Of a DNA stretch of 64,000 nt, positions 16,927 to 46,319 are shown one piece after another. How positions within the stretch are numbered: position 1 is the stretch's first letter; the number at the start of each line of letters is the position of its first letter. The notes beneath the pieces are model-generated. The model was given only the letters and a program-made list of their open reading frames with translations. It was not told the DNA's origin and did no database searches. The position numbers and the translations under genes were made by a program. The stretch lies in the IMG/VR virus record IMGVR_UViG_3300042890_006166, positions 1 to 64,000 of that record; one strand, written 5' to 3'. Source of the stretch: a virus.

Positions 16927-17988
16927 ATGTTAGATCCTTCCTTTTCTCTTAGAAAATTAAAATACAATTTAACTCAAACTTTATACGACGTAGAACAATC
17001 TATTTCAGAAATTTCAGGTAACAAACCCAGGATCCTTTTCGTTGCTCCTCATCTCTCCACCGGAGGGATGCCTCAGTACCTTTATAAATGTATTGAGTGC
17101 CTGTTGCCTTTTTCCGAAATATTCTGTGTTGAATATAACAATCTTTCCGATCAATTCACAGTTCAGAGAGAAAGAATTCAAAACCTTTTGGGAGAAAATT
17201 ACTTCAGATTGGACTCGGAAGACAAGAGTGAATTCCTAGAAATTATTCATCGGGTGTGTCCTGACGTTATTCATTTTCAAGATTTTGTGGAATTTTTCCT
17301 TGGTAACGAGATGTGTGAGAAAATTTATGTTCCAAATAGACCCTGGTTTATCTTTGAGACCTGCCATTCTTCAAACAACAAACCATCTGATAAATTTTGG
17401 TGTCCAGATAAAATCGTGATGGTCAACAAATGGATGTTAAAAGTTTTCGAAAATTCTGGTTTTAATTTGGACTTGTTGGAATATCCAATTGAAAATTTCG
17501 AAAGTATTGGGAAAGAAAAAGCTATAAATTTATTGGGTTTAGACCCTGACAAAAAACATGTTATCAACGTTGGTCTTTTCACACAAGGAAAAAACCAAGG
17601 AGAATTAATTGAATTCGCCAGAGAGATGACACATCTTCCGATAGAGTTTCATTTCGTGGGAAATCTCGCCTGTAACTTTCAGGAATACTGGGAGCCAATC
17701 CTTCAAAATGTGCCAGAAAATTGTAGAGTTTGGGGGGAAAGATCCGATACTGATTTATTTTTTCAAGCTGCTGATTTGTTTGTTTTCAATTCAGTCTGGG
17801 AGTTGAATCCCATTGTAATAAAAGAATCTTTATCATGGAAACTCCCTATCATGATGAGAAGATTGCCTTCGTATATGGATGATTATGATAACAATCCTCT
17901 AGTTCATTATTTTTCCTCAGATGTTGAAAAATCAGGAAAAGCTTACAACACTCGTCTCATTCAAGAAATTTTAGGTTTTAATTCATGA
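16927..17988 (+). CDS. GT-B (GT4-like) glycosyltransferase
   Basis: 353 residues. RILFVAPHLSTGGMPQYLYKC is the N-terminal Rossmann strand and glycine loop of GT-B enzymes. HVINVGLFTQGKNQGELIE opens the C-terminal domain, and DLFVFNSVWELNPIVIKESLSW carries an E-x7-E-like pair (E...IVIKE). Stop and next start overlap as ATGA, so it is coupled to the heptosyltransferase-like gene and the two may act on the same acceptor. Donor and acceptor unknown. Confidence 0.8.
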   Translation: MLDPSFSLRKLKYNLTQTLYDVEQSISEISGNKPRILFVAPHLSTGGMPQYLYKCIECLLPFSEIFCVEYNNLSDQFTVQRERIQNLLGENYFRLDSEDKSEFLEIIHRVCPDVIHFQDFVEFFLGNEMCEKIYVPNRPWFIFETCHSSNNKPSDKFWCPDKIVMVNKWMLKVFENSGFNLDLLEYPIENFESIGKEKAINLLGLDPDKKHVINVGLFTQGKNQGELIEFAREMTHLPIEFHFVGNLACNFQEYWEPILQNVPENCRVWGERSDTDLFFQAADLFVFNSVWELNPIVIKESLSWKLPIMMRRLPSYMDDYDNNPLVHYFSSDVEKSGKAYNTRLIQEILGFNS

Positions 17989-19166
17989 AAAATAAAGGTA
18001 TAGATGTTTATAAAAATGTGGTAAAAGACCTTAGGTGTAGGGTCAAAGACACTTTTGATTTCAAATTTAGTTTTGATTATGGCCCCAAAGTTGATATGGT
18101 TGGAAATAATCCAAAAACTAAAAGAACCATAAAATACAAAGATCTAAACACCAATCATTATGTTTTCGAGACAGAAACCAGTCCTGGATTATTTACGTCG
18201 GTTTTCAGAAGATGGTTTACCCCATGGCGAGTAGAGGTTTACGAAGGAACCAAAGAAATCTGGAGTTTTGACTTTGAGTCTTCTCTTCACAAACAGAAAA
18301 TTTTGGTTTCTATTGATTCCTCTTCATTAGGAGATACTTTGGCCTGGGTTCCGGTGGTAGAGGCTTTACGGAATAAATATCAGGCAGATGTTATTGTTAC
18401 TACCTTTTGGAATTCTTTACTAACGCAATTTTTTCCACAACTTAAATTTTTCCCACCCGGATACAGGGATCATTCCGCTAAGGCAGTTTTTGGTGTTGGC
18501 TGGTACGAAGAGGAAGATAGAAATTGTCATCGCAGAGATCCTAGATCTATTTCTTTACAACAGGTGGCAGGAGATATCCTGGGGATAGATGTTAAAACTG
18601 ATTTACTTCCTCCACAACTTCCTAATTGGTTGTATAGCTTGCCTCCAAGAGAATCCGGAAAATATGTTTGTTTGGCTACAGAGTCTACAGCCAATGCCAA
18701 ACACTGGCACTACGAAAAGGGATGGCAGACAATAGTGGATTACCTTCGAATACTTGGTTATGAAGTTCGGGTCATTCACAAACAAAACAACACTTTAGAG
18801 AGTGTGGTAGATAAAACCGGGGACCGAGATATTTTACAAAGAATGGCCGATATCTATCAAGCAGATTTTTTTATCGGCATTGGTTCTGGACTTTCCTGGC
18901 TAGCGTGGTTTTTGCAAAAACCAGTGGTTATGATTTCTGGGTTTTCCGATCCATCCTGTGAATTTTCGAGAATGAATTATAGGGTTATCAATAGAAATGT
19001 GTGTCACGGGTGTTTCAACGACGTAAAATATAAGTTTGATCGTGGAGATTGGAACTGGTGTCCTAGATTGAAAAATACAGAAAGAATGTTTGAGTGTACC
19101 ACAAAGCTGAGTCCACAACTTGTGATTGAACAAATTAATTTACTTATACAAGAGCAAGGTTTGTAG
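17985..19166 (+). CDS. Autotransporter-heptosyltransferase (BAHT/TibC)-type glycosyltransferase
   Basis: 393 residues. An N-terminal beta-rich part (1-100) precedes a GT9-like GT-B core opening KILVSIDSSSLGDTLAW (from about residue 105), which matches the catalytic loop of the BAHT family (AAH, TibC). Near the C-terminus are C340-x2-C343, C359 and C371 (NVCHGC...WNWC...FEC), the layout of the iron-binding finger of TibC. That family moves heptose from ADP-heptose to serines of repetitive autotransporter adhesins. Here the gene lies about 5 kb from a fibre with Ser-rich repeats and YadA-type repeats, and the genome also has a heptose-7-phosphate kinase (45321). Family assignment is fairly firm; acceptor and sugar are inferred. 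Confidence 0.82.
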   Translation: MKNKGIDVYKNVVKDLRCRVKDTFDFKFSFDYGPKVDMVGNNPKTKRTIKYKDLNTNHYVFETETSPGLFTSVFRRWFTPWRVEVYEGTKEIWSFDFESSLHKQKILVSIDSSSLGDTLAWVPVVEALRNKYQADVIVTTFWNSLLTQFFPQLKFFPPGYRDHSAKAVFGVGWYEEEDRNCHRRDPRSISLQQVAGDILGIDVKTDLLPPQLPNWLYSLPPRESGKYVCLATESTANAKHWHYEKGWQTIVDYLRILGYEVRVIHKQNNTLESVVDKTGDRDILQRMADIYQADFFIGIGSGLSWLAWFLQKPVVMISGFSDPSCEFSRMNYRVINRNVCHGCFNDVKYKFDRGDWNWCPRLKNTERMFECTTKLSPQLVIEQINLLIQEQGL

Positions 19167-19193
19167 AATCTGTTGACTCTGCTTCCCGTGGTG

Positions 19194-19201
19194 GATATAT
19201 A
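19194..19201 (+). promoter_or_regulatory. GATATATA late-promoter-like octamer
   Basis: Exact octamer 32 nt before the ATG at 19234. A TTGACT lies 17 nt upstream of the TATATA core, so a sigma70-type reading is also possible at this single site; the other copies lack it. Confidence 0.55.
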
Positions 19202-19233
19202 CACAAAAGCAATTTTTTTGTTTATATCTCATC

Positions 19234-21783
19234 ATGTCAGCCATTCCCCCCAATAAAGCAATTTTTACAGGACTTCCTGTGTATAACGGGAATGGTAATC
19301 AAAGGGATCTGACCGATCCCAGATATCAGTACCAGGACAATTTATCGAACACCGAAAAGGTACAAGAAACATCTACTGATAATTTATATGGAACAACTGG
19401 AGCTGCTTTAGCCCGAGGAATTCAGATAGGATGTAACGGATATCACACTGTTTTAGCTTCCAATGGAACTTATTATTACGCTCCTTGTGAATCACAGGAG
19501 TGGTTGATAGAAAGATTAACTCAGTTAGACTCTGCTCTAAATTTTACATACATTGGAAATTATAGAGTTCTAACTTACGATCAACCTTTTAGATATGCGA
19601 GTTCTTTCGATGGATGGACTATAGATGCAGCCTTTGCCCTGGAGGGTTATCCAGTAGATCTGAATACTGTTTCTAGTGCTTCGATTACAAACGGAATCGC
19701 TGTTGATTTTAGATATTCGGTGGATGGAGAAACCTGGTCTCTATGGACTAATGTTGGCTTCGCCACGACAGGAATTCAAAATTCTAATTCATCTGGAGAA
19801 AAAGCTCAAATTTTTTCAATACCTCTCGATCCGAATAAACCATTTTATCCAGAGTTCAGATTTACATCTGTTATTATCAACCAAGATGGCTCAATAGCAT
19901 GGGAATCGGAAGAACCTATAAATCCAAATGTTGTCATAGTTTCATTTGATCTTTCTTTGACATATAATACCGACGTGGCTACAGGACCAGATAATTTAGT
20001 CATACGTAATCCAGTTCCACAATGTTCCCCTGAACAATCCAATCGGCCTGTAGTTTTCAACGAATGTGGACCATTTACTTTCAACCCTTACAATATAAAC
20101 AAGGCAATTAACCTTTACAAAGATTTGAGTTTAATTGTTAATAAAATGTTTGGTTTTGAAACCAATTATTATTCTGTACAACCTCAATCCAGATCAAAGG
20201 ACGTTGTTCTCAAAGAGTGGACTTTGTATGATGTGGTAGAGGAAAGATGCGTTAAGGTGATGGTACCTCAAAACCAATTTCCGGACAACAAACCCAACTA
20301 TGATCCGTTTGGGATATCTTTCGAAGAGCCATTCGAGATTCACATCGACAAGGTGTACTTCGAAAGTTTATTTGGTCGAGGATCACAGCCACGTAAAAGA
20401 GATATTCTTTATTTTCCTTTAACCAACAGAATTTATGAAATAAATTCCACCTATCTTTTTCGTGATTTCATGTATTCACCAATTTATTTTAAAATAGAAT
20501 TGAAAAAATACAATCCAAAATCTAACACTTACTTTAGGGATCCAGCCTACAAAGAAGAATTGGATGGGATTGCTTTGAATTCCCAGAAATTATTTGGAGC
20601 TGAAACAGAGGCACAAGAGGAACTTATTACCAAACCACAACAGTACGTCACGACCACGAACGATCGCGGTACCGATCCCACCCGATCGTACGTGTACGAA
20701 AAACTACCGATTGTAAATTATGATTTAAATAACAACTGGACAATTGTGTTCAACAATTACTACGATTTATATGATGCTTTCCAATCCAATCCAGAATTTG
20801 TATACGAGCCAAACAAATATCGGAACGGTGTTAGATATCTTACCACACCTAAGCTCGAGGTAGATGGAGAAATAGCTTTCACGTGTTGGTTTTCTATCAA
20901 AAATTATGTTAATGAAAATTCGCTGACCAAAAAACCTTATCCCCCCATCCCCATGGCACAGGAGACGGTAACTCCCACCAGAATTGTCTACAACACCACC
21001 CCCTATAAACATGGTCTTTCCCCGTGGCTTGGTTACGAAGGAAATCCAGATGGATATGTAGCAGTCAAATCTGATTTAAACCACTCTGGAGGATTTCAAG
21101 TGGCTTCTGTGATTGATGAATTTAAATTTTCTGTTGTTAATCCCAACAAGCCGTTTTCTTTAGATCCTCCGGCACTTAAAATGCAAAAAGCACAGGCTAG
21201 AAATCTAATTGCCGGGGATTATCTGGACCCTAACGAAGGACCACAAGGACTCAGAGTAGATCTTATCTATTCAGGATCTCAAGAGCCCAACAACACCAAC
21301 TTTCTACAAGAAGGAAGCATACAAATCAATATTAATAATTTTGTCTTTAATTCCAAACTTCAGTTTGTTCCTGAGATTGGTGAATGGTATGCCCTGGTGG
21401 TAAATATTTCGAATAAATATCGTCAGCTGGGAGTCAATATGTGGAAGATGAGTTATGATGTTAATAACCCACAAGAACAATCCTCGAATCTTGTTCCGGT
21501 CCATCAAGATTTTAGAACTTTGTCACAGGAATATACTTTCGATTTGCCCAAAGATATTGTTACAGATCCAGCCAACCCCTTGTATGGAACAGACAACAAT
21601 GCTTATAGGATATATACTTCGCCAGTTTTGCTTTCCAACATCAGAATTTTCAAATCGATGATAGACATTAACAAACAATCGATTGTCCTGAATCAGAACG
21701 TTGTAAGGGATGCTCAGCTCGCCCATATTATCGACAATGCCAAACCAACTTTGGCAATTCCTAAAATCCCTAGAAAGGGTTAA
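19234..21783 (+). CDS. Large virion structural protein (neck/baseplate region)
   Basis: 849 residues, no signal peptide or membrane segment, beta-rich. The N-terminal part contains GIQIGCNGYHTVLASNGTYYY. Residues about 540-740 look like a LamG/ConA-like sandwich (KLEVDGEIAFTCWFSIKNYV ... GEWYALVVNISNKYRQLGVN). It lies directly before the terminase genes behind a late-promoter motif, where T4 relatives carry neck and tail-completion genes, so it is probably a virion component. I cannot tie it to a specific T4 gene product. Confidence 0.6.
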   Translation: MSAIPPNKAIFTGLPVYNGNGNQRDLTDPRYQYQDNLSNTEKVQETSTDNLYGTTGAALARGIQIGCNGYHTVLASNGTYYYAPCESQEWLIERLTQLDSALNFTYIGNYRVLTYDQPFRYASSFDGWTIDAAFALEGYPVDLNTVSSASITNGIAVDFRYSVDGETWSLWTNVGFATTGIQNSNSSGEKAQIFSIPLDPNKPFYPEFRFTSVIINQDGSIAWESEEPINPNVVIVSFDLSLTYNTDVATGPDNLVIRNPVPQCSPEQSNRPVVFNECGPFTFNPYNINKAINLYKDLSLIVNKMFGFETNYYSVQPQSRSKDVVLKEWTLYDVVEERCVKVMVPQNQFPDNKPNYDPFGISFEEPFEIHIDKVYFESLFGRGSQPRKRDILYFPLTNRIYEINSTYLFRDFMYSPIYFKIELKKYNPKSNTYFRDPAYKEELDGIALNSQKLFGAETEAQEELITKPQQYVTTTNDRGTDPTRSYVYEKLPIVNYDLNNNWTIVFNNYYDLYDAFQSNPEFVYEPNKYRNGVRYLTTPKLEVDGEIAFTCWFSIKNYVNENSLTKKPYPPIPMAQETVTPTRIVYNTTPYKHGLSPWLGYEGNPDGYVAVKSDLNHSGGFQVASVIDEFKFSVVNPNKPFSLDPPALKMQKAQARNLIAGDYLDPNEGPQGLRVDLIYSGSQEPNNTNFLQEGSIQININNFVFNSKLQFVPEIGEWYALVVNISNKYRQLGVNMWKMSYDVNNPQEQSSNLVPVHQDFRTLSQEYTFDLPKDIVTDPANPLYGTDNNAYRIYTSPVLLSNIRIFKSMIDINKQSIVLNQNVVRDAQLAHIIDNAKPTLAIPKIPRKG

Positions 21784-21794
21784 AAACCATTTTT

Positions 21795-22580
21795 ATGCCA
21801 AGACGTAAACCAAAACCAGAGAAGGTTGTCCAGGAGAGAATCAAGGCAAATTTAGATTCCATCCTGATGGAAGAAAATTTGGAGATTGAATCTTTAACCA
21901 CTGACAATCTTCCGAGAATGAAAACAACGGAGATCATGGATTTTCAGGCTCAAATTCAGTCTACCGGTACAGATTCCAGAGATCTTTTAGAATCTTTGGC
22001 CAAATTCTACGTGGACCAAAATTTAATCGATGAATCCGAATTTCTTGAATATAAGAAGAAAATAGATGCAATGAACGTTGGATCTATGATGCTCCAGATA
22101 AAAACTGCACAGCACGCCATAACCAAGCTCGTAGAAGAAATTGATTTGGGAAGTGCTTCTGCTCGAATGTTTGAGGTTCTTGCACAATTGCAAGCCCAGA
22201 TTATGCAAATGTCAAAGGATCATCAGACATATCTAGAAAAAACTGAAGCCAGTTACAAAAACTTGAGAAAAGAATTGGAGATGAAGGCTTCTTCTGGATC
22301 TGTTCCCATGAAGCAAAATCAAGAATCTGATACCTCTTTTTCACCAAGCTCTTCGCCTTCTAGCCAAGGAACGAACTCCGCACTTAAGGTGAGAGGAACC
22401 AAAAGTTTAATGGAAGGACTGAGGGACATTTTGGGAGCTGAAATCCAAGACGTAAAAGTCGAGGAAGTGAATGAAAATGCGGTTGTTAATGCCAGACAAA
22501 AAGCAAGTCAAGATGCTTCCAAAAACATAAGTATCGAGAGCGAAGGTACTTTTGAAATAGACGACGATTTATTCCTATGA
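21795..22580 (+). CDS. terS: Small terminase subunit (gp16-like)
   Basis: 261 residues. The call rests mainly on position: it overlaps the large terminase by ATGA. The content agrees, with a central helical coiled-coil region (about 85-175: AQHAITKLVEEIDLGSASARMFEVLAQLQAQIM) of the type that forms terminase small-subunit rings. This is followed by a Ser-rich linker and a C-terminal segment that could contact the large subunit. It would recognise DNA and regulate packaging. T4 gp16 is shorter (164 aa). Confidence 0.65.
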   Translation: MPRRKPKPEKVVQERIKANLDSILMEENLEIESLTTDNLPRMKTTEIMDFQAQIQSTGTDSRDLLESLAKFYVDQNLIDESEFLEYKKKIDAMNVGSMMLQIKTAQHAITKLVEEIDLGSASARMFEVLAQLQAQIMQMSKDHQTYLEKTEASYKNLRKELEMKASSGSVPMKQNQESDTSFSPSSSPSSQGTNSALKVRGTKSLMEGLRDILGAEIQDVKVEEVNENAVVNARQKASQDASKNISIESEGTFEIDDDLFL

Positions 22581-24376
22581 GCAAACAAGAAGATAATTAT
22601 TTAGATTCCAATTATTGGTCCACAAAAAGGGTTGATGACCTTATGAGGAAGGTTGAGGAGGAAGGTTTGGATTACAAATCAGTCGAAAACCCTTTTCATG
22701 ACGGGGATCCATCTCTAAAAAGGTCTAATTTGCTTTGGGAATATACACCAGAGGAATTGCAAGAAATGCAAAAATGTGCCTTGGACGTGGTACACTTTGC
22801 AAAGTACTGTCAGGTAATGACCGATGAGGGGCTTCAATACATTCAATTAAGAGATTATCAAGAATCTGTATTGAGGGAATATCAGAATAATAGATTCAAT
22901 GTTTTTCTTGCACCGCGTCAAGTGGGTAAATCCATCACATCTTCTATCATTTTAGTGTGGTATCTACTTTTCAATCACGATAAAAATGCGATGATTTTGG
23001 CTAACGTTGGATCCACTGCGGAAGAATTGATGGATAAAATCAAAGCAATCGTGAAAGGTTTGCCCTGGTTCTTAAAGCCGGGGATGATTGTTAATAACGT
23101 TATGTCCATGAAATTCGATAATGGGTGTAGGGCGATAGCTAAGACCACCACGAAAACAACGGCAATTGGTTTTACAATTCACTTTTTGTACATGGATGAG
23201 TTTGCTCATATTCATCCCAATTTTATCGAGTCTTTCTTTCGTTCTTCCTATCCTACAGTTTCATCTTCAAAGGTGTCAAGAATTATTATCACTTCTACAC
23301 CTAACGGCATGAATAAATTTTATGAGATTTATCAAGGCGCTCTCACTGGGGAAAATTCGTTCAATCCTGTTCGGGTGGACTGGTGGCAGGTTCCGGGCAG
23401 GGATGAAGAATGGAAAAGACAAGAAATTGCCAACCTAGGTAGTGAGGAACTTTTCAATCAGGAATACGGCAATCAATTTCTCAGTTCAACCTCTTTGTTG
23501 TTAGGATCAAATGAGCTAAAAAAAATCAAATCAAACGAATCTGAATATGTGTGGAGGGAGATAGATGTTTTGAGCGATTTGGGTGTTGTTTACGAGAATT
23601 TCAGATGGCACCCAAAATTTTCTTTAGATTCAGCATCTTTAGAGGATAAAAATTTTGTTTTTTCTGTGGATCTTGCTGGGGGTGGAAGAGGCGATTTTAC
23701 GGTCATAAATATTTTTAGAGTTGTTCCTTTACCCAAAAAATTAATCGAAACTATCGATGACTATAAGGACGAAGCGGACTTTTTTGGTTTACTTCAGGTT
23801 GGAGTTTTTAGAGATAATGGAATTCAAATCGAGGACATCAAAAAAATGTTGGAGGCTTTAATTTTAAATATATTCAACAAAGAAAGATTAACTATCATTT
23901 TAGAGATGAATTTCAGGGGAGAACTTCTATTGGACAAATTGATTTCAAACGACGAGATTTCTTTGGATATGTTTTTACACACCAAACATACAGAGTCTGC
24001 AAGAACTGCAAAACCTGGCATCAAGTACAACGAGAAGAACAAAATGAAATATTGTGAAATGTTAAGATCTTTATTTAGACAAAACCGGGTTATTGTGAAC
24101 GAAAAAGCATGGACTATTCCTGAACTTTTTTCTTTTGGCTTAAACAGCAGCGGAACCTATTCTTCACAATCTGGACACGACGATGTTGCCATGACATTAG
24201 TTAGTTTATCTTCTCTTTTTGAAACAACTGCTTTTTATGACCTAATAGGTGACCTGTACGATCGAATGGATGAAGGGTATAGAAAATTAATAGAATCTAA
24301 ATTAGACGACAAAGAAAACGACGGGAAAACAAAGGAAGGAAGCTTTTATAATTCTTTTAGTAAGCTAATGTCATAA
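22577..24376 (+). CDS. terL: Terminase large subunit (gp17-like)
   Basis: 599 residues, close to T4 gp17 in length. ATPase domain: Walker A APRQVGKS at 112-119, Walker B FLYMDEFA at 203-210 with Asp207-Glu208, coupling motif STPNG at 240-244. Nuclease domain: VDLAGGG near 364 supplies the first catalytic Asp, LEMN near 443 a second acidic residue, and GHDD near the C-terminus the third. It drives headful DNA packaging through the portal and cuts the concatemer. It is translationally coupled to the preceding small subunit. Confidence 0.96.
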   Translation: MSKQEDNYLDSNYWSTKRVDDLMRKVEEEGLDYKSVENPFHDGDPSLKRSNLLWEYTPEELQEMQKCALDVVHFAKYCQVMTDEGLQYIQLRDYQESVLREYQNNRFNVFLAPRQVGKSITSSIILVWYLLFNHDKNAMILANVGSTAEELMDKIKAIVKGLPWFLKPGMIVNNVMSMKFDNGCRAIAKTTTKTTAIGFTIHFLYMDEFAHIHPNFIESFFRSSYPTVSSSKVSRIIITSTPNGMNKFYEIYQGALTGENSFNPVRVDWWQVPGRDEEWKRQEIANLGSEELFNQEYGNQFLSSTSLLLGSNELKKIKSNESEYVWREIDVLSDLGVVYENFRWHPKFSLDSASLEDKNFVFSVDLAGGGRGDFTVINIFRVVPLPKKLIETIDDYKDEADFFGLLQVGVFRDNGIQIEDIKKMLEALILNIFNKERLTIILEMNFRGELLLDKLISNDEISLDMFLHTKHTESARTAKPGIKYNEKNKMKYCEMLRSLFRQNRVIVNEKAWTIPELFSFGLNSSGTYSSQSGHDDVAMTLVSLSSLFETTAFYDLIGDLYDRMDEGYRKLIESKLDDKENDGKTKEGSFYNSFSKLMS

Positions 24377-24436
24377 CACGTTAGAGATATATAATTTAGA
24401 ACTCTAGTAATATCCACATTTGTGGTAATCCATTTT

Positions 24437-24444
24437 GATATATA
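24437..24444 (+). promoter_or_regulatory. GATATATA late-promoter-like octamer
   Basis: Exact octamer 28 nt before the sheath ATG at 24473. A second exact copy sits at 24386-24393 in the same gap, and a small palindrome, CCACATTTGTGG, lies between them at 24414-24425. Tandem promoters would suit a highly expressed sheath gene. Confidence 0.6.
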
Positions 24445-24472
24445 CTAGGGAAAAAATATCTTCAAAACGATA

Positions 24473-35209: not shown

Positions 35210-35231
35210 CATTTTCTAAGTTAAACACACT

Positions 35232-35264: not shown

Positions 35265-35337
35265 GTCATAATTTTTAGAAATTTGTCTTTATCACATCTC
35301 CGTTTCGAAATCGTACGAAGAACAAATTATGGTTGGA

Positions 35338-35345
35338 GATATATA
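35338..35345 (+). promoter_or_regulatory. GATATATA late-promoter-like octamer
   Basis: Exact octamer, 19 nt before the ATG at 35365 and 73 nt after a strong terminator. The terminator-motif-gene order is good evidence that the octamer starts transcription. Confidence 0.65.
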
Positions 35346-35364
35346 CTAAAATAAACTTAATCTC

Positions 35365-35643
35365 ATGTTACAAAAAATCAAAACAAATTTCGAAGTTATT
35401 CTTCTGTGTTTATTTCTAGGACTTTTTATGAAACAGTGTGGAATGGGCAGAGATCTAGAAAGAATAAAAAAGGAAAATTCCAAAATTTCGGTGAAGATGG
35501 ATTCTCTTGTCACTAAAAAAGACCTGATTATAGAGGGTTTAAAAGCAGAAAAAAGAATGATCCAATCGACAGATAGAAAAATGATTGATGTCACACGACA
35601 GTCTGTTCTTGATCAAGAAATTGAAAATTTAGAATCCAAATGA
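35365..35643 (+). CDS. Small membrane-anchored coiled-coil protein
   Basis: 92 residues. An N-terminal hydrophobic segment (FEVILLCLFLGLFM, about 9-22) is followed by a charged helix to the C-terminus. A Cys after the hydrophobic stretch (MKQCG) could be a lipidation site, but the flanking residues are a poor lipobox. N-in membrane anchor plus coiled coil is the shape of i-spanins (Rz-like), so a lysis role is possible, but no neighbour proves it. It overlaps the next membrane protein gene by ATGA. Confidence 0.65.
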   Translation: MLQKIKTNFEVILLCLFLGLFMKQCGMGRDLERIKKENSKISVKMDSLVTKKDLIIEGLKAEKRMIQSTDRKMIDVTRQSVLDQEIENLESK

Positions 35644-36422: not shown

Positions 36423-36424
36423 AA

Positions 36425-37102: not shown

Positions 37103-37103
37103 A

Positions 37104-37646
37104 ATGGCAACCAGACCTATCCTTTGTCCTCCTATTCCACCTAACGGTTGGGTTTTCTTTAAAAATCAATTTGTGTTGGAAGAAGATTTTAACTACACAA
37201 CCTTTTTTAACTTTAAAGATTTAGCGTTTGTTGTTCAAGATTATTCTAGATTGATGATCACACTGAAAAGAACTAAATCTATTAAGCTAAGTCAAACCGA
37301 CATTGGAACGGAGGGTTTTGTACGTTGGATAGCAGTTAAGGTTCAATACCCTGCTCCAAAAAATCCGATATTGTTTGCTTCGCAAACCCCAATTATTCCA
37401 GGAGTTCCTACACCTAAGAACGGAACTCCACAAATCCAAAAATACATTCACTGGAGTTATCAAGGTAAAACTTACAACCTAGGGGAACTTATGGTACTAA
37501 GTGGTAACCCTCTTGGATCTACTGATTCTGATGTAACTGGGTGGAATTTAAGCGAATATGATTTACTTTATTCGGGTGGCGGAATCACTTTTACCAACCC
37601 TCATCCCGACTTCGATGTGAAACTACAAGTTCTGGTAGCTAAATAA
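37104..37646 (+). CDS. Putative virion protein, paralogue of the previous gene
   Basis: 180 residues. IHWSYQGKTYNLGELMVLSG, a following GW, GGGITFTNP and the ending VKLQVLVAK align with the preceding gene product, indicating a tandem duplication with divergence at the N-terminus (here Pro-rich: RPILCPPIPPNGW). One base separates it from the previous stop. Function unknown. Confidence 0.6.
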   Translation: MATRPILCPPIPPNGWVFFKNQFVLEEDFNYTTFFNFKDLAFVVQDYSRLMITLKRTKSIKLSQTDIGTEGFVRWIAVKVQYPAPKNPILFASQTPIIPGVPTPKNGTPQIQKYIHWSYQGKTYNLGELMVLSGNPLGSTDSDVTGWNLSEYDLLYSGGGITFTNPHPDFDVKLQVLVAK

Positions 37647-37650
37647 AAAA

Positions 37651-37674
37651 ATTCAGAAAACGAAAGTTCTGAAT
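37651..37674 (+). other. Hairpin immediately before a late-promoter motif
   Basis: ATTCAGAA (37651-37658) pairs with TTCTGAAT (37667-37674). No U-tract follows on the + strand, so it is not a classic terminator in that direction. It may still stop or process the upstream mRNA, since the next base starts GATATATA. Confidence 0.45.
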
Positions 37675-37682
37675 GATATATA
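37675..37682 (+). promoter_or_regulatory. GATATATA late-promoter-like octamer
   Basis: Exact octamer, 24 nt before the ATG at 37707, directly abutting the hairpin at 37651-37674. Confidence 0.6.
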
Positions 37683-37706
37683 GTACGTAAAAAAATTCAA
37701 AAGAAA

Positions 37707-40373: not shown

Positions 40374-40540
40374 AAAAAATCCTCAGTAGGGTATGGGCTT
40401 TTGCACCATCTAGTCCAGATCAGGACAAAAAACCCGAACCTTTTGTAGATGATTATAAAAAGGGTATGAGTTTTGCACCATCTGGAAAATCTGAAGATAG
40501 TGAATTTACAGATGATTCGGCTGAGGAAAATAAGTTTTAA
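40370..40540 (+). CDS. -1-frame extension of the 888-residue protein (probable frameshift)
   Basis: At 40364-40370 the sequence A AAA AAC is a canonical -1 slippery heptamer, followed directly by TAA in the original frame. AGGAG at 40354-40358 could act as the upstream Shine-Dalgarno-like stimulator. A -1 slip reads on for 56 codons to TAA at 40538-40540. The extra residues include two more repeat marks, WAFAPSSPDQD and MSFAPSGKSED, matching FASAPGSEKG and FAVAPSKGSEG upstream, so this stretch was once, or still is, part of the protein. A homopolymer sequencing error would give the same picture. Confidence 0.55.
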   Translation, partial: LKKILSRVWAFAPSSPDQDKKPEPFVDDYKKGMSFAPSGKSEDSEFTDDSAEENKF

Positions 40541-40599
40541 ATGAAACTAACCTCGAGGATAAAACTAAGATTCTAAGTTAGCAATTTTTTTAACATTTA

Positions 40600-40959
40600 A
40601 TGACAAAAGTTTACGTTACAAACTCCAGTTTAATGGCTGCTATTCTTGAATCTAAGAAAAAAGGCCAACTGACCAACGAGACAATCGAAATGTTCAATTT
40701 AATGATTGCTGGTATTTCCAAGAAAATGGCTTACAAAGATCCAGATGATAAAGCTGATTGTATGGCTTTTGCAATGGAAGATCTTTGTAAGTATTGGAAT
40801 AGGTTCGATCCAACCAAATCAAATAATCCATTTGCTTATTACACACAAATAGCAAAAAATGGATTTGCAAAAGGGTGGAAAAAAATTCACCCCCCTAAAT
40901 CCCCTAAAACCATTCCATTTTCTTATATTACAGGAGAAGACAATTCCTATAATATTTAG
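40600..40959 (+). CDS. gp55: Late transcription sigma factor (gp55-like)
   Basis: 119 residues; T4 gp55 has 185. The start KVYVTNSSLMAAILESKKKG, the middle MIAGISKKMAY and the core WNRFDPTKSNNPFAYYTQIA with FAKGWKKI follow the order of T4 gp55 (YVNNKELLQAI, IAEGLSKRF, NFDETKYKNPHAYITQA, RIKKE). This core is the region-2 part that contacts the late -10 element. The C-terminal clamp-binding tail is short or missing, so contact with the sliding clamp may differ. It is the natural candidate to read the GATATATA octamers. No convincing promoter motif precedes it. Confidence 0.75.
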   Translation: MTKVYVTNSSLMAAILESKKKGQLTNETIEMFNLMIAGISKKMAYKDPDDKADCMAFAMEDLCKYWNRFDPTKSNNPFAYYTQIAKNGFAKGWKKIHPPKSPKTIPFSYITGEDNSYNI

Positions 40960-41445
40960 ATGACTGATATTAAGAAAATAAAGCCCAACGGTAGCTACAA
41001 ATCTGGTTTGTATGTACCGGTCAATCCAGACAAATACGTTGGAGATATACACAACATAATTTGTAGATCAAGCTGGGAATTCAGATTTTGCAAATATTGT
41101 GATAATAACGATAAAATTTTAAAGTGGAGTTCAGAACCAGCCGCTATACCATATTATAATCCTTTGGACAAAAAAGATCACAAGTACAATGTTGATTTTT
41201 ATTTGAAAGCCCTTCAAGACGATGGTAATGAACAGGAATGGTTGGTAGAGGTGAAACCTGAAAAGCAACACGAAAAGCCAGTATATGAAGGAACTTACAC
41301 CGTAGATAAACTGAAATCATACAATCACAAAATGCAAATTTGGATTACAAACCAAGCCAAATTCAAAGCTGCTAAACATTGGGCTGAAAGTAGAGGAATG
41401 AAATTTGGGGTTGTAAACGAGAAATTCTTATTTCAAAGTAAATGA
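40960..41445 (+). CDS. gp4: Head completion protein (gp4-like nuclease fold)
   Basis: 161 residues, close to T4 gp4. GLYVPVNPDKYVGDIHNIIC then RSSWEFRFCKYCDNND, WSSEPAAIPYYNPLDKKDHK, VDFYLK and WLVEVKPEKQ match the T4 head-completion family. The spaced E/D/E-x-K residues (WEF, VDFY, VEVKP) form a TnsA/PD-(D/E)XK-like nuclease site. It would finish filled heads before tail joining. The start abuts the gp55-like stop, and its last 4 bases overlap the next start (ATGA). Confidence 0.88.
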   Translation: MTDIKKIKPNGSYKSGLYVPVNPDKYVGDIHNIICRSSWEFRFCKYCDNNDKILKWSSEPAAIPYYNPLDKKDHKYNVDFYLKALQDDGNEQEWLVEVKPEKQHEKPVYEGTYTVDKLKSYNHKMQIWITNQAKFKAAKHWAESRGMKFGVVNEKFLFQSK

Positions 41446-42044
41446 TCGACTTTCAGGATCAGGCCAGAAAATTAAGAAGTGAATTTCCTTCTTTAACTAA
41501 ACTTAATTCATTGATAAACGAGGAATTTTTGGAAAAATATGGGCCAAGCTCGAATCACTCTGGAGAGAAATTCACTTCTTTTAAAAGCGGAAAAATTTAT
41601 TTTGCGTTACACACAACAAAAACAAATCCAGGAGAAAAAAATCCCTTCGTAAATAGATATCCGTGCTTTCTTTTTTTATCAGAAGAAAGAATTGGTACAG
41701 GGATGATTTGCAAAGTAATGGATCTTACAATTATTCCAAATGATAAACGGGCAGAAATTTTAACTAGACTAACTTCTACTTTTTCAGAAATACTTCAAGA
41801 AAATATGAGAAATATTTTGGGATCTCAAATGCCTTTGAATCTTAAGGGAGAAAATTTACAAAAAATATTCAAAGGAACTGGATACGAGTTTGCAATTTTT
41901 GGGTTTCACAAGGAAAATTTACGTGACGTGAAAATTGTAGATTATGAAGACTGGGTAAAAATTCCTTATTTCAATAACGCCTCAATAGAGGGTCTCTCTT
42001 TGGATAAGATATATAGGGAATATAAATCGAAAATAAAAACTTGA
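41442..42044 (+). CDS. Conserved-looking phage protein, unassigned
   Basis: 200 residues. FKSGKIYFALHTTKTNPGEK followed by NRYPCFLFLSE and LTIIPNDKRAEILTRL recalls a pattern in T4-like structural or head-end proteins (a strand naming a hydrophobic value, then a Y-P-x-F-L-F strand), but I cannot name the family with confidence. It lies between gp4 and the portals, so a head or neck role is likely. ATGA overlap with gp4. Confidence 0.6.
   Translation: MIDFQDQARKLRSEFPSLTKLNSLINEEFLEKYGPSSNHSGEKFTSFKSGKIYFALHTTKTNPGEKNPFVNRYPCFLFLSEERIGTGMICKVMDLTIIPNDKRAEILTRLTSTFSEILQENMRNILGSQMPLNLKGENLQKIFKGTGYEFAIFGFHKENLRDVKIVDYEDWVKIPYFNNASIEGLSLDKIYREYKSKIKT
42008..42015 (+). promoter_or_regulatory. GATATATA inside the 3' end of the preceding gene
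   Basis: Exact octamer within the last codons of the 41442 gene, 59 nt before the first portal ATG. TATAAAAATA at 42052-42061 is a second A/T-rich candidate closer to the start. Either could drive the portal genes. Confidence 0.35.
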
Positions 42045-42074
42045 TTTTGTCTATAAAAATAAATTTCTGGCTTC

Positions 42075-43700
42075 ATGGCAGGATTTAACGAGAATCCAAA
42101 TACCAATCCCATATTCCAAAGAATAAGGGAATCCATCAAAAATCTGAGTAATTTCGGATTGCGGTATGGTGACATGGTGGTTAAAAATTCCCAAGCCATT
42201 GGTGCTACTGAAGCAGAATTTTTAAAGAAGGGACCTATAGAAGATGAAACAACTTTTTTCTCCTTAGGAAGACAAGATACGACAACCAGACAATACATTT
42301 CCTATTTTGATAAAGACTATGCAGGAAAAAGAGATTACTTGAGAAAATTTTCTTTAAACCCGGAAATTGAATATATTCTGGATACTGTTTGCGACGAGTC
42401 TATTTCTTATGATGGTTATAACTTTTTCGCTTATCCAGCATTCCTTAATATAACCGGGCTTAAACAAGATGTAATAGATAAAATTGATTCAACGTACAAA
42501 AAATTGTACGACATGTTTGGATTCAATGATGATATTTCTGCCTGGCAGTACTTCAGGCAGCTTTTGGTTGATGGTTTTGTAGCTTTCGAAATTGTGTATG
42601 ATGACAAAGGAAAAAATATTATCGGATTTAAAGAATTGGATGCTACCACGTTAATGCCCTCTGTAGAAAAGCAGAAAGATGGAACATTCTTGAATGTTTG
42701 GTATCAATATCCTAAGGACGAAAGAAAAAGAAGAATGCTGTATGATTCTCAGATCATTTATCTTTCTTACGCAAAGGGTAATTCTGTTTCAAGGGTAAGT
42801 TATACTGAAAGGTTAATTCGTCCATATAATGTTCTGAGGATCATAGAATACACTCGTGTTATTTGGTCTGTGATGAATGCATCTTTCCGTCTTAAAATGA
42901 CAGTTCCGGTAGGCTCCAGATCACAACAAAAGGCTATGCAAACACTCGGAGAGTTAATGTCTATCTATAAAGAAGATATTCAATTCAACGACGAAAGCGG
43001 TGAACTTTCAGTAAACGGACAACCAAAAATTCAGTTCTACAAAAATTATCTTATGCCCAAAGGTGCTTTGGGTACTCCTAATATTGAACCTTTAAATACT
43101 GCTGGACCAAATTTGAATGATCCAGCTCCTTTGGCTTACTTTTTTGACAAGTTGGTTCAAGAATCTAAAATACCATTTTCTAGATTTCAAGGGCCTGATG
43201 GCGGATCAACAGGTAAATATGCCAATGCAGCAGAAGGATTAGACAAAGAAGAAATTAGATTTTCGAAGTTCATTATGAGATTGAGATCTGTTTTTCAAGA
43301 TATTCTCATAAAACCTCTATGGATTCAATTGTGTCGTGATTTTCCCCAATTGGAGAAGGATTATATGTTCAGAAGTCAGCTTGGTTTAACTTTTGTTTCA
43401 GATAATCCGTTTCGTGTTAACCAGGAGATAGAAACGATGAGCAAAAGAAAAGAATCCATCGACTCTATGTACCAATTAGTGGATGAAGAAGGTCAACCTT
43501 TCTTTTCTTTAGGATTTTTGATTGAAAATTTTCTTGGAATGACCGAGGATGATATCAAGGCTAATGAAGAAGCGAAAGAGAAGGCAAAAAAGAAAAAAGA
43601 AAAAAATTCACCTGAGGGAGAAGGGGGAGAAGAAGGCGGTGCTCCTCCTGAAGGGCCAGAACCAGGAGCAGCCCCGCCTGAAACAGAAACACCAACATAA
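42075..43700 (+). CDS. gp20: Portal protein, copy 1 (gp20-like)
   Basis: 541 residues; T4 gp20 has 524. It has the T4 portal features: RKFSLNPEIEYILDTVCDES (the D-x-x-x-x-E pattern near the N-terminus), WQYFRQLLVDGFVAFEIVYD, LSYAKGNSVSRVSYTERLIR, the wing/stem sequence RVIWSVMNASFRLKMTVPVG, and FIMRLRSVFQDILIKPLWIQ at the C-terminal side. It ends in a Lys then Gly/Pro/Glu tail. Twelve subunits would form the DNA-packaging vertex. A full-length paralogue follows after 2 nt. Confidence 0.93.
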   Translation: MAGFNENPNTNPIFQRIRESIKNLSNFGLRYGDMVVKNSQAIGATEAEFLKKGPIEDETTFFSLGRQDTTTRQYISYFDKDYAGKRDYLRKFSLNPEIEYILDTVCDESISYDGYNFFAYPAFLNITGLKQDVIDKIDSTYKKLYDMFGFNDDISAWQYFRQLLVDGFVAFEIVYDDKGKNIIGFKELDATTLMPSVEKQKDGTFLNVWYQYPKDERKRRMLYDSQIIYLSYAKGNSVSRVSYTERLIRPYNVLRIIEYTRVIWSVMNASFRLKMTVPVGSRSQQKAMQTLGELMSIYKEDIQFNDESGELSVNGQPKIQFYKNYLMPKGALGTPNIEPLNTAGPNLNDPAPLAYFFDKLVQESKIPFSRFQGPDGGSTGKYANAAEGLDKEEIRFSKFIMRLRSVFQDILIKPLWIQLCRDFPQLEKDYMFRSQLGLTFVSDNPFRVNQEIETMSKRKESIDSMYQLVDEEGQPFFSLGFLIENFLGMTEDDIKANEEAKEKAKKKKEKNSPEGEGGEEGGAPPEGPEPGAAPPETETPT

Positions 43701-43702
43701 TT

Positions 43703-45310
43703 ATGGCAGGATTTAACGACGATAACAGCCAACAGCGTTCTTTCTTAGGAAATTTGTATCGAAATCTGTCCAGAATTGGAAGGTTTGGAATGCAGTATGA
43801 GGATATGGTCATCAGAAATTCGCAGGCTATAGGAGCAACTGAATCTACTTTTTTCAATAATCAAGGAACAGGATTTACTGAGAATGATGCTTTCTTTTGG
43901 ACATTGGGTTATCAAGACACCAGAGTAAGAAAATACATCGCTTATTTCGACAAGGACTATTTAGGCAAAAGAGAGTTTCTACGAAAATTTGCATTAAATG
44001 GAGAAATTGATTTTATCCTAGATACCCTTTCGGACGATGCCATAAATTATGACGATAAAAATTTCTTTGGATATCCTTCGTTATTGAATGTAGATCTAAA
44101 GCCCGAGGTGCGAGCTAAGGTGGAAGAAAATTTCAGAACTTTATACATGCTTTTTGGTTTTCAACAAAGCATTTTGGCCTGGCAATATTTCCGTCAATTT
44201 TTGATTGATGGGTTTTTGGCTTTTGAAATTGTTTACTCTACAGACGGCAAGAAAATTGTTGGATTTAAAGAATTAGATGCTACTTCTTTACAACCAGCCA
44301 CAGAACAACAACCTAACAAAGAATTTCAACAAATTTGGATTCAATATCCAGGTGATCCTAGAATGACCCGAAAATTAAAGGCAGAGCAAGTAATTTATCT
44401 TTCCTATGCCAAGGGTAACTCAGTTTCTAGAGTAAGTTATACGGAAAGACTTATTAGATCGTATAACATTTTAAGGGTGATGGAGAACACAAGAGTTATT
44501 TGGAATGTGATGAACGCTTCATACCGTTTGAAATTTGTTATTCCAGTTGGAACACAATCAGGACAAAAAGCAATGCAAACACTGGGACAATTAATGTCTC
44601 AGTATAAAGAAGAAATTCAAATCAACGATACTTCCGGGGAATTAACCGTAAATGGAGCTCCCAAAGTTCAGTTTTACAAAAATTATTTATTCCCTGAAAA
44701 AGACGGAGAATCTCCGGACATCAACACATTAAATCCTGCTGGACCCGATTTCAACGTCATGGAAAACGTTGTGTACTTTTACAACAAGCTGAAGTTAGAC
44801 TCCAAAATTCCATATGCTAGATTTGCTTCGAGGAGTGGTCCTGTGACTTACCAGATTTCTATCGATCAGTTAGAAAGAGATGAAATTAGATATGAAAAAT
44901 TCGTTACCCGTTTGAGGTCTGTTTTTCAAGAACTTTTGGTAAAACCTTTATACATACAAACCTGTTTGGATTTTCCGGCTTTGTCTGAAGACCGGTCTTT
45001 CAAAGTTAATTTGGGGTTGGATTTTGTGAAAGAAAATGTTTTTGAGCAATTGATTGTACTTTCTAATTATACAAAAAGAACAGCTTTTATTACCGCCTTG
45101 GGTGATATGAAACAGAAGATTGGGGAAGAAGAAGTTCCTTATTTCGATAAGGAATGGCTTATCAAAAGATGGCTAGGTCTGAGCATGGACGAATATCGTT
45201 CCAATCAAAAGTACAAAGATGATGAAAAAAAACAGGCAGACAAGGATAAAAAGGACAAGGGAGAAGAAGGAGGAGGTGGAGAAGGGGGAGCACCGGATTT
45301 TACGCTTTAA
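43703..45310 (+). CDS. gp20: Portal protein, copy 2 (gp20-like)
   Basis: 535 residues, homologous to copy 1 over its whole length. It starts MAGFNDDNSQQ as copy 1 starts MAGFNENPN, both have NSQAIGATE near residue 40-50, and the block AKGNSVSRVSYTERLIR with R-V-I-W-x-V-M-N-A-S-x-R-L-K is almost identical. They differ most in the segment after SRFQGPDGG (copy 1) versus ARFASRSGP (copy 2). Both look intact, so neither is an obvious pseudogene. A mixed or two-stage portal is possible. Confidence 0.92.
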   Translation: MAGFNDDNSQQRSFLGNLYRNLSRIGRFGMQYEDMVIRNSQAIGATESTFFNNQGTGFTENDAFFWTLGYQDTRVRKYIAYFDKDYLGKREFLRKFALNGEIDFILDTLSDDAINYDDKNFFGYPSLLNVDLKPEVRAKVEENFRTLYMLFGFQQSILAWQYFRQFLIDGFLAFEIVYSTDGKKIVGFKELDATSLQPATEQQPNKEFQQIWIQYPGDPRMTRKLKAEQVIYLSYAKGNSVSRVSYTERLIRSYNILRVMENTRVIWNVMNASYRLKFVIPVGTQSGQKAMQTLGQLMSQYKEEIQINDTSGELTVNGAPKVQFYKNYLFPEKDGESPDINTLNPAGPDFNVMENVVYFYNKLKLDSKIPYARFASRSGPVTYQISIDQLERDEIRYEKFVTRLRSVFQELLVKPLYIQTCLDFPALSEDRSFKVNLGLDFVKENVFEQLIVLSNYTKRTAFITALGDMKQKIGEEEVPYFDKEWLIKRWLGLSMDEYRSNQKYKDDEKKQADKDKKDKGEEGGGGEGGAPDFTL

Positions 45311-45320
45311 ATTTAACTGA

Positions 45321-46319
45321 ATGAATTTTAGGGAATTATTTTTATCTAAAAAAATATTGGTTGTTGGTGATTCTATTTTGGACCACTATGTTTATGGAAA
45401 GGTTCATAGAATATCCCCGGAAGCACCAGTTCCAGTTGTTCTGAAAAGCAAAGAGCAATTTTTTCTAGGTGGAGCAGCAAATGTCGCTCAGAATATTACA
45501 GCCTTCGGAGCCAAGTGCACTTTATTGACTTTGGTAGGAGATGACGAAGATGGAAAAATGTTGTTGAAAAAATGTAACGAAAAAAATATAGATCCGATTT
45601 TCGTCCACGAGCAAGATAGACCAACAACGAAAAAAACCAGGATTATAGGAAATAAACATCAAATTGTCAGAATCGACGTTGAACAAACACATGATTTATC
45701 ATATGATTCTAGTTTGAGAATCATTGAGGAATTTGAAAAACAAGTTCAATTGCATGACGGTGTGATTTTTCAAGATTACGGAAAGGGATTATTTACAGAT
45801 TTCATATTAACTTCTTTGATTGAAATATCAAAGAAATACTCGAAAGAAATTTTGGTAGATCCTAAGGAACCTGATCTTGGTAGATATCAAGGAACAGATC
45901 TTATCAAGCCAAATTTGAATGAGTTCAAGGCTATGGTGAATATTAAACCTGAACAAGATTTAGAAATTAGTCAGATCGTAAATTATGCTCAACTGGTGAT
46001 GGAAGAATTCGACTATAAATATTTCCTAATTACTTTATCAGAAAAAGGAATGTTGTTGGTGGGGAGACACTTTTCTCATCATGTGCCTGGTATAAATGTA
46101 GATGTTTCAGATGTTTCTGGAGCGGGGGACACGGTTAGTTCAGTTTTCAGCTTAGGGTTTTTTTCTTGCACATACGATTTTGTATCCAAGTCGAATTTGA
46201 TCCGAATAGCAGAACTGGCTAATCTGGCAGGATCTTTAGTGTGTAGACATTCTGGAGCAGTCCCAGTTGACCCTGGAGAATTAGAAGAATTATTCGAAAA
46301 AAATCCAATTTTTTCCTGA
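45321..46319 (+). CDS. hldA: D-glycero-beta-D-manno-heptose-7-phosphate kinase (HldE N-domain/HldA type)
   Basis: 332 residues, a PfkB/ribokinase-fold kinase matching the first domain of HldE (RfaE). Evidence: VGDSILDHYVYGKVHRISPE, FFLGGAANVAQNI (about 47-59), LVDPKEPDLGRYQGTDLIKP, and the catalytic loop DVSGAGDTVSSVF with GAGD at 267-270. The adenylyltransferase domain of HldE is absent, so this is the kinase alone. It would make heptose-1,7-bisphosphate, a step towards ADP-heptose, the donor of BAHT/TibC-type transferases such as the product of 17985-19166. It is placed 10 nt after the second portal gene. Confidence 0.88.
   Translation: MNFRELFLSKKILVVGDSILDHYVYGKVHRISPEAPVPVVLKSKEQFFLGGAANVAQNITAFGAKCTLLTLVGDDEDGKMLLKKCNEKNIDPIFVHEQDRPTTKKTRIIGNKHQIVRIDVEQTHDLSYDSSLRIIEEFEKQVQLHDGVIFQDYGKGLFTDFILTSLIEISKKYSKEILVDPKEPDLGRYQGTDLIKPNLNEFKAMVNIKPEQDLEISQIVNYAQLVMEEFDYKYFLITLSEKGMLLVGRHFSHHVPGINVDVSDVSGAGDTVSSVFSLGFFSCTYDFVSKSNLIRIAELANLAGSLVCRHSGAVPVDPGELEELFEKNPIFS

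Follow-up and report, generated by a model that had tools for sequence, protein, structure and literature searches.

A conserved GT4 and TibC-type glycosyltransferase pair beside Ser/Thr-rich collagen-like fibre genes suggests fibre glycosylation by a phage

The window analysed in the present study comprises 64,000 nucleotides, positions 1 to 64,000 of the 126,669-bp virus record IMGVR_UViG_3300042890_006166. It opens with two fibre ORFs, followed by glycosyltransferase-like genes and, further downstream, a PfkB-type kinase gene (Table 1). The first ORF holds 380 Gly-x-y triplets (312 GSS, 65 GTS and 3 GTR) and then approximately 200 residues of non-collagen sequence; as both contig ends lie inside GSS/GTS-type repeats, it may continue the ORF found at positions 120633-126669 of the record. 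Counting in-frame runs of four or more, the window contains 941 triplets (380 + 561), with a further 576 at the opposite end of the record, which falls short of the over 1900 that the original prediction gave for fibres 1-12560. Its description of very long Ser/Thr-rich Gly-x-y tracts together with YadA-like repeats does fit the fibre ORFs. The GSS/GTS tracts are nearly without proline, and the C-terminus of the 2845-aa fibre appears to resemble an intramolecular chaperone. ORF 15434-16675 is structural-protein-like, with a LamG-like appearance by eye. Three other glycosyltransferases had been proposed next to the fibre genes, of which two are GT4-type by Pfam; the third has no Pfam match at E 0.01 and marginal NCBIfam matches (E 0.007-0.008), and is listed as tentative. 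Relatives of the minus-strand GT4 gene were found in the window's phage clade only, in a scan that returned five loci, too few to serve as a control.

Table 1 Features of the window discussed in the text
Feature	Position	Strand	Remarks
Collagen-like fibre, C-terminal part	1..4020	+	Open at contig end; candidate acceptor
2845-aa fibre, candidate acceptor	4023..12560	+	561 GSS/GTS-type triplets, residues 123-1805; YadA-like NNVAVG repeats
Possible glycosyltransferase (tentative)	12579..13232	+	phrog_1574, function not assigned there; marginal HpsN/HpsE similarity
GT4-type glycosyltransferase	13867..15024	-	Pfam Glycos_transf_1, 70 bits
GT4-type glycosyltransferase, BAHT partner	16927..17988	+	Pfam; overlaps BAHT start by 4 bases
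TibC/Aah-type (BAHT) glycosyltransferase P0001	17985..19166	+	Open 393-aa ORF; TIGR04414, TibC comparison
Asp117 codon of BAHT	18333..18335	+	Equivalent of TibC catalytic base Asp110
BAHT iron-finger segment	19002..19097	+	Cys340/343/359/371 = TibC 339/342/358/370
Stand-alone HldE-N-like (heptose-7-phosphate kinase-like) PfkB kinase	45321..46319	+	332 aa; adjoins portal genes

P0001 is a TIGR04414/BAHT family enzyme with predicted heptosyltransferase activity, in agreement with the BAHT/TibC-type assignment made earlier. It scores 266.7 bits against the NCBIfam model TIGR04414 (hepto_Aah_TibC, cut-off 200) and matches TibC (4RAP) at E 5e-54, with 35% identity over 337 aligned residues. TibC residues D110, T226, K230, R286 and W305 correspond to D117, T235, K239, R286 and W305 of P0001, the roles of donor-site, catalytic and iron-finger residues being those given in the TibC paper (PMC4358343). 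All four iron-finger cysteines are intact, indicating a putative iron site. Across 65 phage BAHT domains, counted after removal of identical domains and of four rows shorter than 250 aa, the catalytic-base Asp is present in 65 and the four cysteines in 64. Residue 300 is Gly in P0001, Pro in TibC and Ser in AAH. The structure nearest to the predicted model (pLDDT 84) is TibC (E 8.5e-32, TM 0.79 over 388 columns), with LPS heptosyltransferases far weaker (E 8e-11 or worse), and predicted strands within residues 24-96 form a TibC-like N-terminal barrel. No PHROGs family matched at E 0.01, and at E 1e-5 P0001 had a match in 4 of 50,697 phage records, a twin pair among them. The canonical target repeat (strand-loop-strand, TIGR04415) had no match in the whole record at E 10, and we therefore assign only the enzyme and not a BAHT-autotransporter system. 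DNA glycosylation is cited as a role of phage glycosyltransferases in PMC10202952 and PMC12619734; that the present enzymes glycosylate phage DNA is nevertheless highly improbable, as the closest fold and sequence are by far those of a protein O-heptosyltransferase.

BAHT is one half of a conserved phage GT4-BAHT module, often fused into a single protein. Homologues of the GT4 partner in other phages occur as N-terminal fusions to BAHT; the model of the partner itself has a GT-B fold and, its quality being modest (pLDDT 70), nothing beyond this is drawn from it. We compared 43 viral loci (59 from the BAHT scan minus 16 near-duplicates picked by eye), among which relatives remain, so that the counts are not independent: the GT4 homologue was fused to BAHT at 13, within 200 bp at 21, within 5 kb at 4 and not found at 5, three of these beginning inside the BAHT ORF. 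The domain order in fused cases is GT4 then BAHT. The isolate Microcystis phage Mel-JY01 encodes a 1227-aa protein with a Glycos_transf_1 and a TibC-type domain, near a GTS/GSS collagen-like reading frame of 202 triplets that is only partly annotated in its record. In a terminase-clade scan, of which the best 80 of 195 matches were kept with near-duplicates included, BAHT was present at 43 of the 48 loci having 6 kb upstream, GT4 and BAHT together at 41, and neither at 5. Among bacterial-genome loci the GT4 partner was seen at 1 of 26, an ORF-based count from pruned lists in which ORFs overlapped by longer ones can be missed.

The pair has the fibre genes on one side and the neck/terminase genes on the other. 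This adjacency could also mark a host-range island whose glycosyltransferases alter the surface of the host, be it LPS, capsule or an adhesin, to block superinfection. Fibre-adjacent glycosyltransferases of pelagimyophages are read as O-chain modifiers in PMC7029224, and the slot from 15087-15389 to 19234 is variable within the clade, being nearly closed in loci L468, L478 and L479 and holding other genes in L460 and L477. We regard such remodelling as unlikely, since the acceptor of TibC-type enzymes is Ser in a protein and P0001 keeps both the N-terminal barrel fold and the iron finger, and since the pair is near-core together with structural genes.

The distribution of collagen-like genes also argues against a host-surface role, as BAHT tracks Ser/Thr-rich more than Pro-type collagen. 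Of the 43 BAHT loci, 26 had collagen-like ORFs within the flanks fetched, counted from similarly pruned ORF lists; 25 of these 26 loci are GSS/GTS-type with a Ser/Thr fraction of at least 0.54, and seven of the ORFs begin 10-47 bp after BAHT. Among all records of at least 30 kb within the 80 listed per pattern (at least 119 and at least 120 stretches found), BAHT occurred in 13/36 Ser/Thr-collagen and 2/28 Pro-collagen records (p 0.008), a comparison in which the Ser/Thr set is richer in very large records and a size effect is possible. Leaving out three records seen before gave 10/33 Ser/Thr-collagen records with BAHT (p 0.028), and a post hoc regrouping by actual composition gave 14/32 versus 1/26 (p 0.0006). 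The association has exceptions in both directions: 23 of the 36 Ser/Thr-collagen records are without BAHT, GSS/GTS collagen is present in L468 and L477 with BAHT absent from the fetched 10 kb, and a Pro-type record (L233/G097, Ser/Thr fraction 0.17) carries BAHT. In L436 and L442-L445, BAHT stands beside GAQ/GAK-rich collagen, with few GSSGTS islands in the three inspected.

The subclade whose nearest collagen is GAQ-rich, in which BAHT is kept, speaks for modification of some other virion protein or region, such as the YadA-like beta-roll, ORF 15434-16675 or another structural protein. The known TibC substrate is a beta-helix (PMC4358343), and the 2845-aa fibre does contain a YadA-like repeat region. 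YadA-like repeats, however, occur at 4 of the 43 BAHT loci against 25 of 43 for GSS/GTS collagen, and were rejected as the main acceptor on this count; together with the lack of TIGR04415 repeats in the record, this makes a different virion target improbable.

Bacterial relatives provide a further comparison. In the BAHT tree, 16 bacterial rows are separated from 62 phage and 6 bacterial-assembly rows with a split support of 100/100. Several of the bacterial genes stand beside large Ser/Thr/Gly/Asn-rich ORFs, probable autotransporters, and on the Methylobacter luteus chromosome a related BAHT lies approximately 40 bp after a gene for a GTA/GTS-repeat protein. A single phage origin of BAHT was unsupported, as the midpoint-rooted tree forces five label changes.

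The kinase scores 120.4 bits against Pfam PF00294 (PfkB, cut-off 25.8) and has the GAGD motif. Among NCBIfam models TIGR02198 (rfaE_dom_I) fits it best, but 311.2 bits is below the cut-off of 345, and it is therefore named HldE-like only; with this qualification, the stand-alone HldE-N-type kinase of the original prediction was recovered. It matches the HldE/HldA structure 4E84 at E 9e-49, sharing the stretch RISPEAPVPVV, and has no adenylyltransferase domain. The kinase is near-core in the window's clade, being found at 27 of 33 portal loci, with five of the six misses ending before its place. The heptosylation logic, which had been described as complete, is not: profile searches of the 126,669-bp record, which may itself be incomplete, gave no match at E 10 for SIS_2/GmhA or TIGR02199/HldC, and scanning with simple motifs, as distinct from family searches, for sites resembling those of GmhB and HldD gave one match, inside the first fibre ORF. 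GmhA was likewise found in none of 48 BAHT records (47 drawn from the BAHT scan, and G010 taken from that for the kinase), and a complete pathway was rejected.

The kinase itself was present in 6 of the 48 BAHT records, all six in the window's clade and one of them (G010) chosen via the kinase scan, and in 3 of 15 further BAHT records, including LR756501, known beforehand to have it. LR756501 represents a third BAHT lineage (kinase match 306 bits), and G061, from a second lineage, has an HldC-type adenylyltransferase above cut-off (201-202 bits); TIGR02199 matches below cut-off (46-96 bits) in G040, G062, G069, G078, G092 and G097 were excluded as HldC. Mel-JY01 has no TIGR02198 or TIGR02199 match, and for its cytidylyltransferase-like gene the NCBIfam models gave no match at E 1e-8. 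A universal pairing of BAHT with the kinase was rejected, given that in the records searched outside the window's clade the two co-occur only in LR756501 and, as weak split matches, in G069 and G097. The kinase may instead be unrelated to BAHT and serve heptose signalling, maintenance of the host envelope or a different sugar, the two genes simply belonging to the core of one clade. It is located 26 kb from BAHT between portal genes and an ORF resembling a DNA ligase by eye, falls below the TIGR02198 cut-off and is absent from most BAHT records outside the clade; furthermore, kinase-like matches occur in 35 phage records, mostly from Synechococcus and Prochlorococcus phages, of which only the twins LR756501 and LR756503 also match P0001. 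Two points speak for a connection, namely that BAHT keeps its Arg286 in the clade with a near-core kinase and that a strong heptose-pathway gene is present in two further BAHT lineages. We consider an unrelated kinase a serious possibility, if somewhat short of an even chance, and one compatible with the fibre part of our preferred explanation.

Arg286 bears on the sugar donor. In TibC this residue contacts adenine and its loss abolished or largely diminished activity (PMC4358343). It is missing in 45 of the 65 phage BAHT domains, so the donor may differ in other phages and it would be unwise to extend the term heptosylation to them; by contrast, 29 of 31 distinct BAHTs from the terminase-clade scan (best 80 of 195) have it. 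Considering heptose genes with curated-strength matches, the association with Arg286 was 3/6 versus 0/14 lineages (p 0.018; p 0.06 and 0.16 under looser definitions), the lineages being hand-grouped from the tree using records of at least 60 kb only, with the main Arg286 lineages as sister groups. A heptose donor is plausible for the window's clade, in which Arg286 is kept and the kinase is near-core.

The position of a conserved GT4-BAHT pair, one member of which is related to an enzyme that decorates bacterial adhesins with heptose, beside huge Ser-rich collagen-like fibres indicates that this phage probably sugar-coats its own fibres. We give a probability of roughly 0.6 to the full reading, in which the phage O-glycosylates fibres rich in Ser/Thr, the sugar in this clade being heptose and the kinase boosting the donor. 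The overlapping GT4 and TibC-type genes would form a virion-fibre glycosylation module, modifying Ser/Thr of the GSS/GTS fibres in the host cytoplasm ahead of assembly. ADP-heptose is the most likely donor for the TibC-type step, the kinase would raise its supply and the host would provide the remaining pathway, while the GT4 enzyme may either prime the residue or extend the sugar. A likely benefit would be a fibre that is stiff, protease-resistant or adsorption-tuned. Own-fibre glycosylation as originally proposed thus gains from the conservation and fusion of the GT4-BAHT pair, the co-occurrence with GSS/GTS collagen and the Methylobacter neighbour, and loses its complete heptose pathway.

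Several known systems resemble parts of this arrangement. P0001 is like TibC (4RAP/4RB4) and AAH in its above-cut-off TIGR04414 score, its fold, five catalytic/donor-site residues and four iron-finger cysteines; it differs in being phage-encoded, in having no TIGR04415 target found, in its pairing or fusion with GT4 and in often lying near collagen-like fibres. The kinase shares PfkB family membership, the GAGD motif and the RISPEAPVPVV stretch with the HldE N-domain and HldA (4E84), whereas it is stand-alone, scores 311 against a curated 345 bits and lacks the adenylyltransferase domain. Mycobacteriophages are likewise reported to place glycans on their own virion proteins (Freeman 2023, cited in PMC12619734), although the targets are the C-termini of capsid and tail-tube subunits, and the passages of PMC12619734 consulted mention neither a TibC-type enzyme nor a collagen-like fibre. 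Mimivirus L230 is a viral collagen glucosyltransferase acting on viral collagen-like proteins, but according to PMC9614988 it glucosylates hydroxylysine, is homologous to animal collagen galactosyltransferase and belongs to a eukaryotic virus, the candidate residues in the present case being Ser/Thr. BclA-type bacterial collagen-like proteins bear sugars as well; these are spore proteins, and the corresponding passages of PMC8968730 do not speak of a TibC-type enzyme. Among the open-licence PMC papers listed, none linked TibC-type enzymes with phages or collagen-like fibres, and the word phage is absent from the TibC paper (PMC4358343).

More tentatively, and with somewhat less confidence than even odds, we suggest that the GSS/GTS collagen-like fibres carried by T4-like and huge phages are acceptors of a new class for enzymes of the TibC type. 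Glycans would be laid down by a GT4-TibC assembly line, in many cases a single polypeptide and in some extended by additional glycosyltransferase or methyltransferase domains, along hundreds of Ser/Thr residues, which would replace proline as the triple-helix stabiliser, and part of the family may have exchanged ADP-heptose for a different nucleotide sugar by losing Arg286, a testable residue for donor choice. If true, many large environmental phages would coat their fibres with sugar by means of an enzyme hitherto associated with bacterial adhesins, and Gly-Ser-Ser tracts that run to more than a thousand residues with almost no proline would have an explained purpose. It would also provide a function for unnamed phage glycosyltransferases, and a simple two-enzyme system to glycosylate collagen-like materials.

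By alignment and predicted structure, the BAHT protein (TIGR04414/TibC-type glycosyltransferase) of the window is a member of the sequence and fold family of TibC, a bacterial O-heptosyltransferase for autotransporter adhesins. It scored 266.7 bits against the curated autotransporter O-heptosyltransferase model (cut-off 200) and 28.6 bits against the LPS heptosyltransferase I model, aligned with TibC at 35% over 337 positions, and gave a predicted model (pLDDT 84) whose nearest solved structure is TibC. TibC residues Asp110, Thr226, Lys230, Arg286, Trp305 and Cys339/342/358/370, with functional roles as described in PMC4358343, are all present in the alignment, while position 300 differs, being Gly here, Pro in TibC and Ser in the related enzyme AAH. 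The catalytic-base Asp, Lys230 and Trp305 show no variation across 65 distinct phage BAHT domains, 64 of which retain the cysteines. A PHROGs search at E 0.01 returned zero families. The enzyme is not assigned to a classical BAHT-autotransporter system, because the target repeat of that system was not found in the record. Two other loci carry a shorter second BAHT-like ORF overlapping and then following the full-length one (L037:5362-6177, L048:4944-5756).

The window covers bases 1-64,000 of a linear viral record of 126,669 bp, which represents a contractile-tailed, T4-like phage with portal, terminase, tail sheath and tail tube genes. The original prediction of over 1900 collagen-like triplets in the window was an overestimate, as the counts for its two fibre ORFs show (see table). 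Both position 1 and position 126669 lie inside GSS/GTS repeats, so the contig break probably falls within a single giant fibre gene that the assembly may have split. Both copies of the tandem portal gene are kept in a second locus, L107.

Features of the phage record (positions in the record)
Feature	Position	Remarks
Gly-x-y fibre ORF	1-4020	380 triplets, nearly all GSS/GTS
Gly-x-y fibre ORF	4023-12560	561 triplets, nearly all GSS/GTS
Small ORF	15087-15389	borders module slot
ORF	15434-16675	
GT4-type ORF	16927-17988	precedes BAHT ORF, four-base overlap
BAHT ORF	17985-19166	
Neck-like gene	19234	borders module slot
Tandem portal gene	42075-43700	phrog_213 portal protein, 199 bits
Tandem portal gene	43703-45310	phrog_213 portal protein, 194 bits
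HldE-like kinase ORF	45321-46319	
Asparagine synthase-like gene	66579-68015 (L002:3579-5015)	glutamine amidotransferase domain, Pfam 127.9 bits
Unannotated 223-aa ORF	69179-69850 (L002:6179-6850)	outside window; zero Pfam or PHROGs matches
Third Gly-x-y fibre ORF	runs off far end of record	outside window; 576 triplets

Of 59 viral loci matched by BAHT, 43 were retained as non-redundant, selected by eye. GT4 and BAHT form a single protein in 13 of these, lie within 200 bp in 21 and within 5 kb in four; a GT4 homologue was not found in the remaining five, three of which start within the BAHT ORF. Domain order in the fusions (GT4, then BAHT) follows gene order in the window. Homologues of the unannotated 223-aa ORF are fused to GT4 in eight loci, including two apparent duplicate pairs (L027/L028 and L030/L033), and some of the nine scanned fusions and neighbours contain FkbM methyltransferase, borderline GT2 or polysaccharide pyruvyl transferase domains. 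A GT4 partner occurred in one of 26 bacterial-genome loci, and the MAG contig carrying it may belong to a phage. One 254-kb contig filed as a Bacteroidetes MAG (L390) may be a misbinned large phage, since the start of a neighbouring ORF resembles, by eye, that of the ORF at 15434-16675.

In the terminase clade the GT4-BAHT module occupies a defined slot, which is almost closed in L468, L478 and L479 and filled by other genes in L460 and L477. The module is thus a cassette, a pattern that fits modification of the virion and fits modification of the host surface less well. A sulfotransferase (Pfam) lies between fibre and module in record G010 (L106:7705-8526), and ORFs resembling a sulfotransferase and a small kinase by eye occupy the slot in L477 (2699-6277), hinting at sulfated glycans.

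Within fetched flanks of up to 10 kb, collagen-like ORFs (at least 12 triplets) accompany 26 of the 43 BAHT loci and are of Ser/Thr type in 25 and of GAQ type in L037. The distance from BAHT to the start of a downstream collagen-like ORF is 10-47 bp in seven loci. Specificity was assessed by scanning viral contigs for DNA patterns of collagen of either the Ser/Thr or the Pro type and seeking TIGR04414 in all records of at least 30 kb among the matches listed. Among these, it was present in 13/36 Ser/Thr-collagen (absent from 23) versus 2/28 Pro-collagen records (Fisher p 0.008), the records being non-independent and very large ones commoner in the Ser/Thr set. Removing three records known beforehand left 10/33 (p 0.028), and a post hoc split of the 58 loci whose tracts could be measured, using their true composition, gave 14/32 versus 1/26 (p 0.0006), the sole low-Ser/Thr record with BAHT among the matches listed being L233/G097. 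Besides the 23 Ser/Thr-collagen records lacking BAHT and L233/G097, counter-examples occur in the window's own clade: the collagen of L468 and L477 is GSS/GTS-type, yet the stretch viewed holds no BAHT, and in L436 and L442-L445 BAHT lies close to tracts rich in GAQ/GAK (for L436, L442 and L444 by inspection of the sequence). A chromosomal phage-type BAHT (311.5 bits) follows a GTA/GTS-repeat protein by ~40 bp on a 4.5-Mb Methylobacter luteus scaffold (L383:4926-7128).

According to PMC4358343, TibC Arg286 touches adenine N1 and is the stated basis of ADP-sugar choice. Arg286 occurs in only 20 of the 65 phage domains; it is retained in 29/31 distinct BAHTs of the terminase-clade scan (best 80 of 195 matches) and in 16 bacterial rows on the opposite side of the tree. 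In the window's clade the HldE-like kinase is likewise near-core, being present in 27/33 portal loci; of the six loci without it, five are too short to reach the kinase site and one (L503) is a real absence there. All 11 kinase records of at least 36 kb, several of them near-duplicates, carry BAHT, and the remaining ten are at most 24 kb. Outside that clade the kinase is rare: it was found in 6/48 BAHT records, all of the window's clade and one picked for its kinase, and in 3/15 further records: LR756501 (306 bits, known beforehand), and G069 and G097 with weak, split hits. An HldC-type adenylyltransferase exceeded its cut-off in one further lineage (G061). Curated-strength heptose-gene hits occurred in 3/6 Arg286 lineages, the main ones being sister groups in the tree, versus 0/14 others (p 0.018; p 0.06 and 0.16 with looser hits). 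Heptose is a likely donor sugar in the window's clade, given the retained Arg286 and near-core kinase there. GmhA was found in 0/48 BAHT records, so the remaining pathway steps would fall to the host.

Virion glycosylation is known in mycobacteriophages (cited in PMC12619734), virus-encoded collagen glycosylation from mimivirus L230 (PMC9614988) and glycosylated collagens from bacteria (PMC8968730). The rfaE-like genes and fibre-adjacent glycosyltransferases of pelagimyophages were interpreted as LPS-directed (PMC7029224). Among the papers listed in a literature search, none linked TibC-type enzymes to phages or collagen-like fibres. Judged from sequence, the module probably represents phage self-glycosylation by a TibC-type enzyme acting on a new acceptor.
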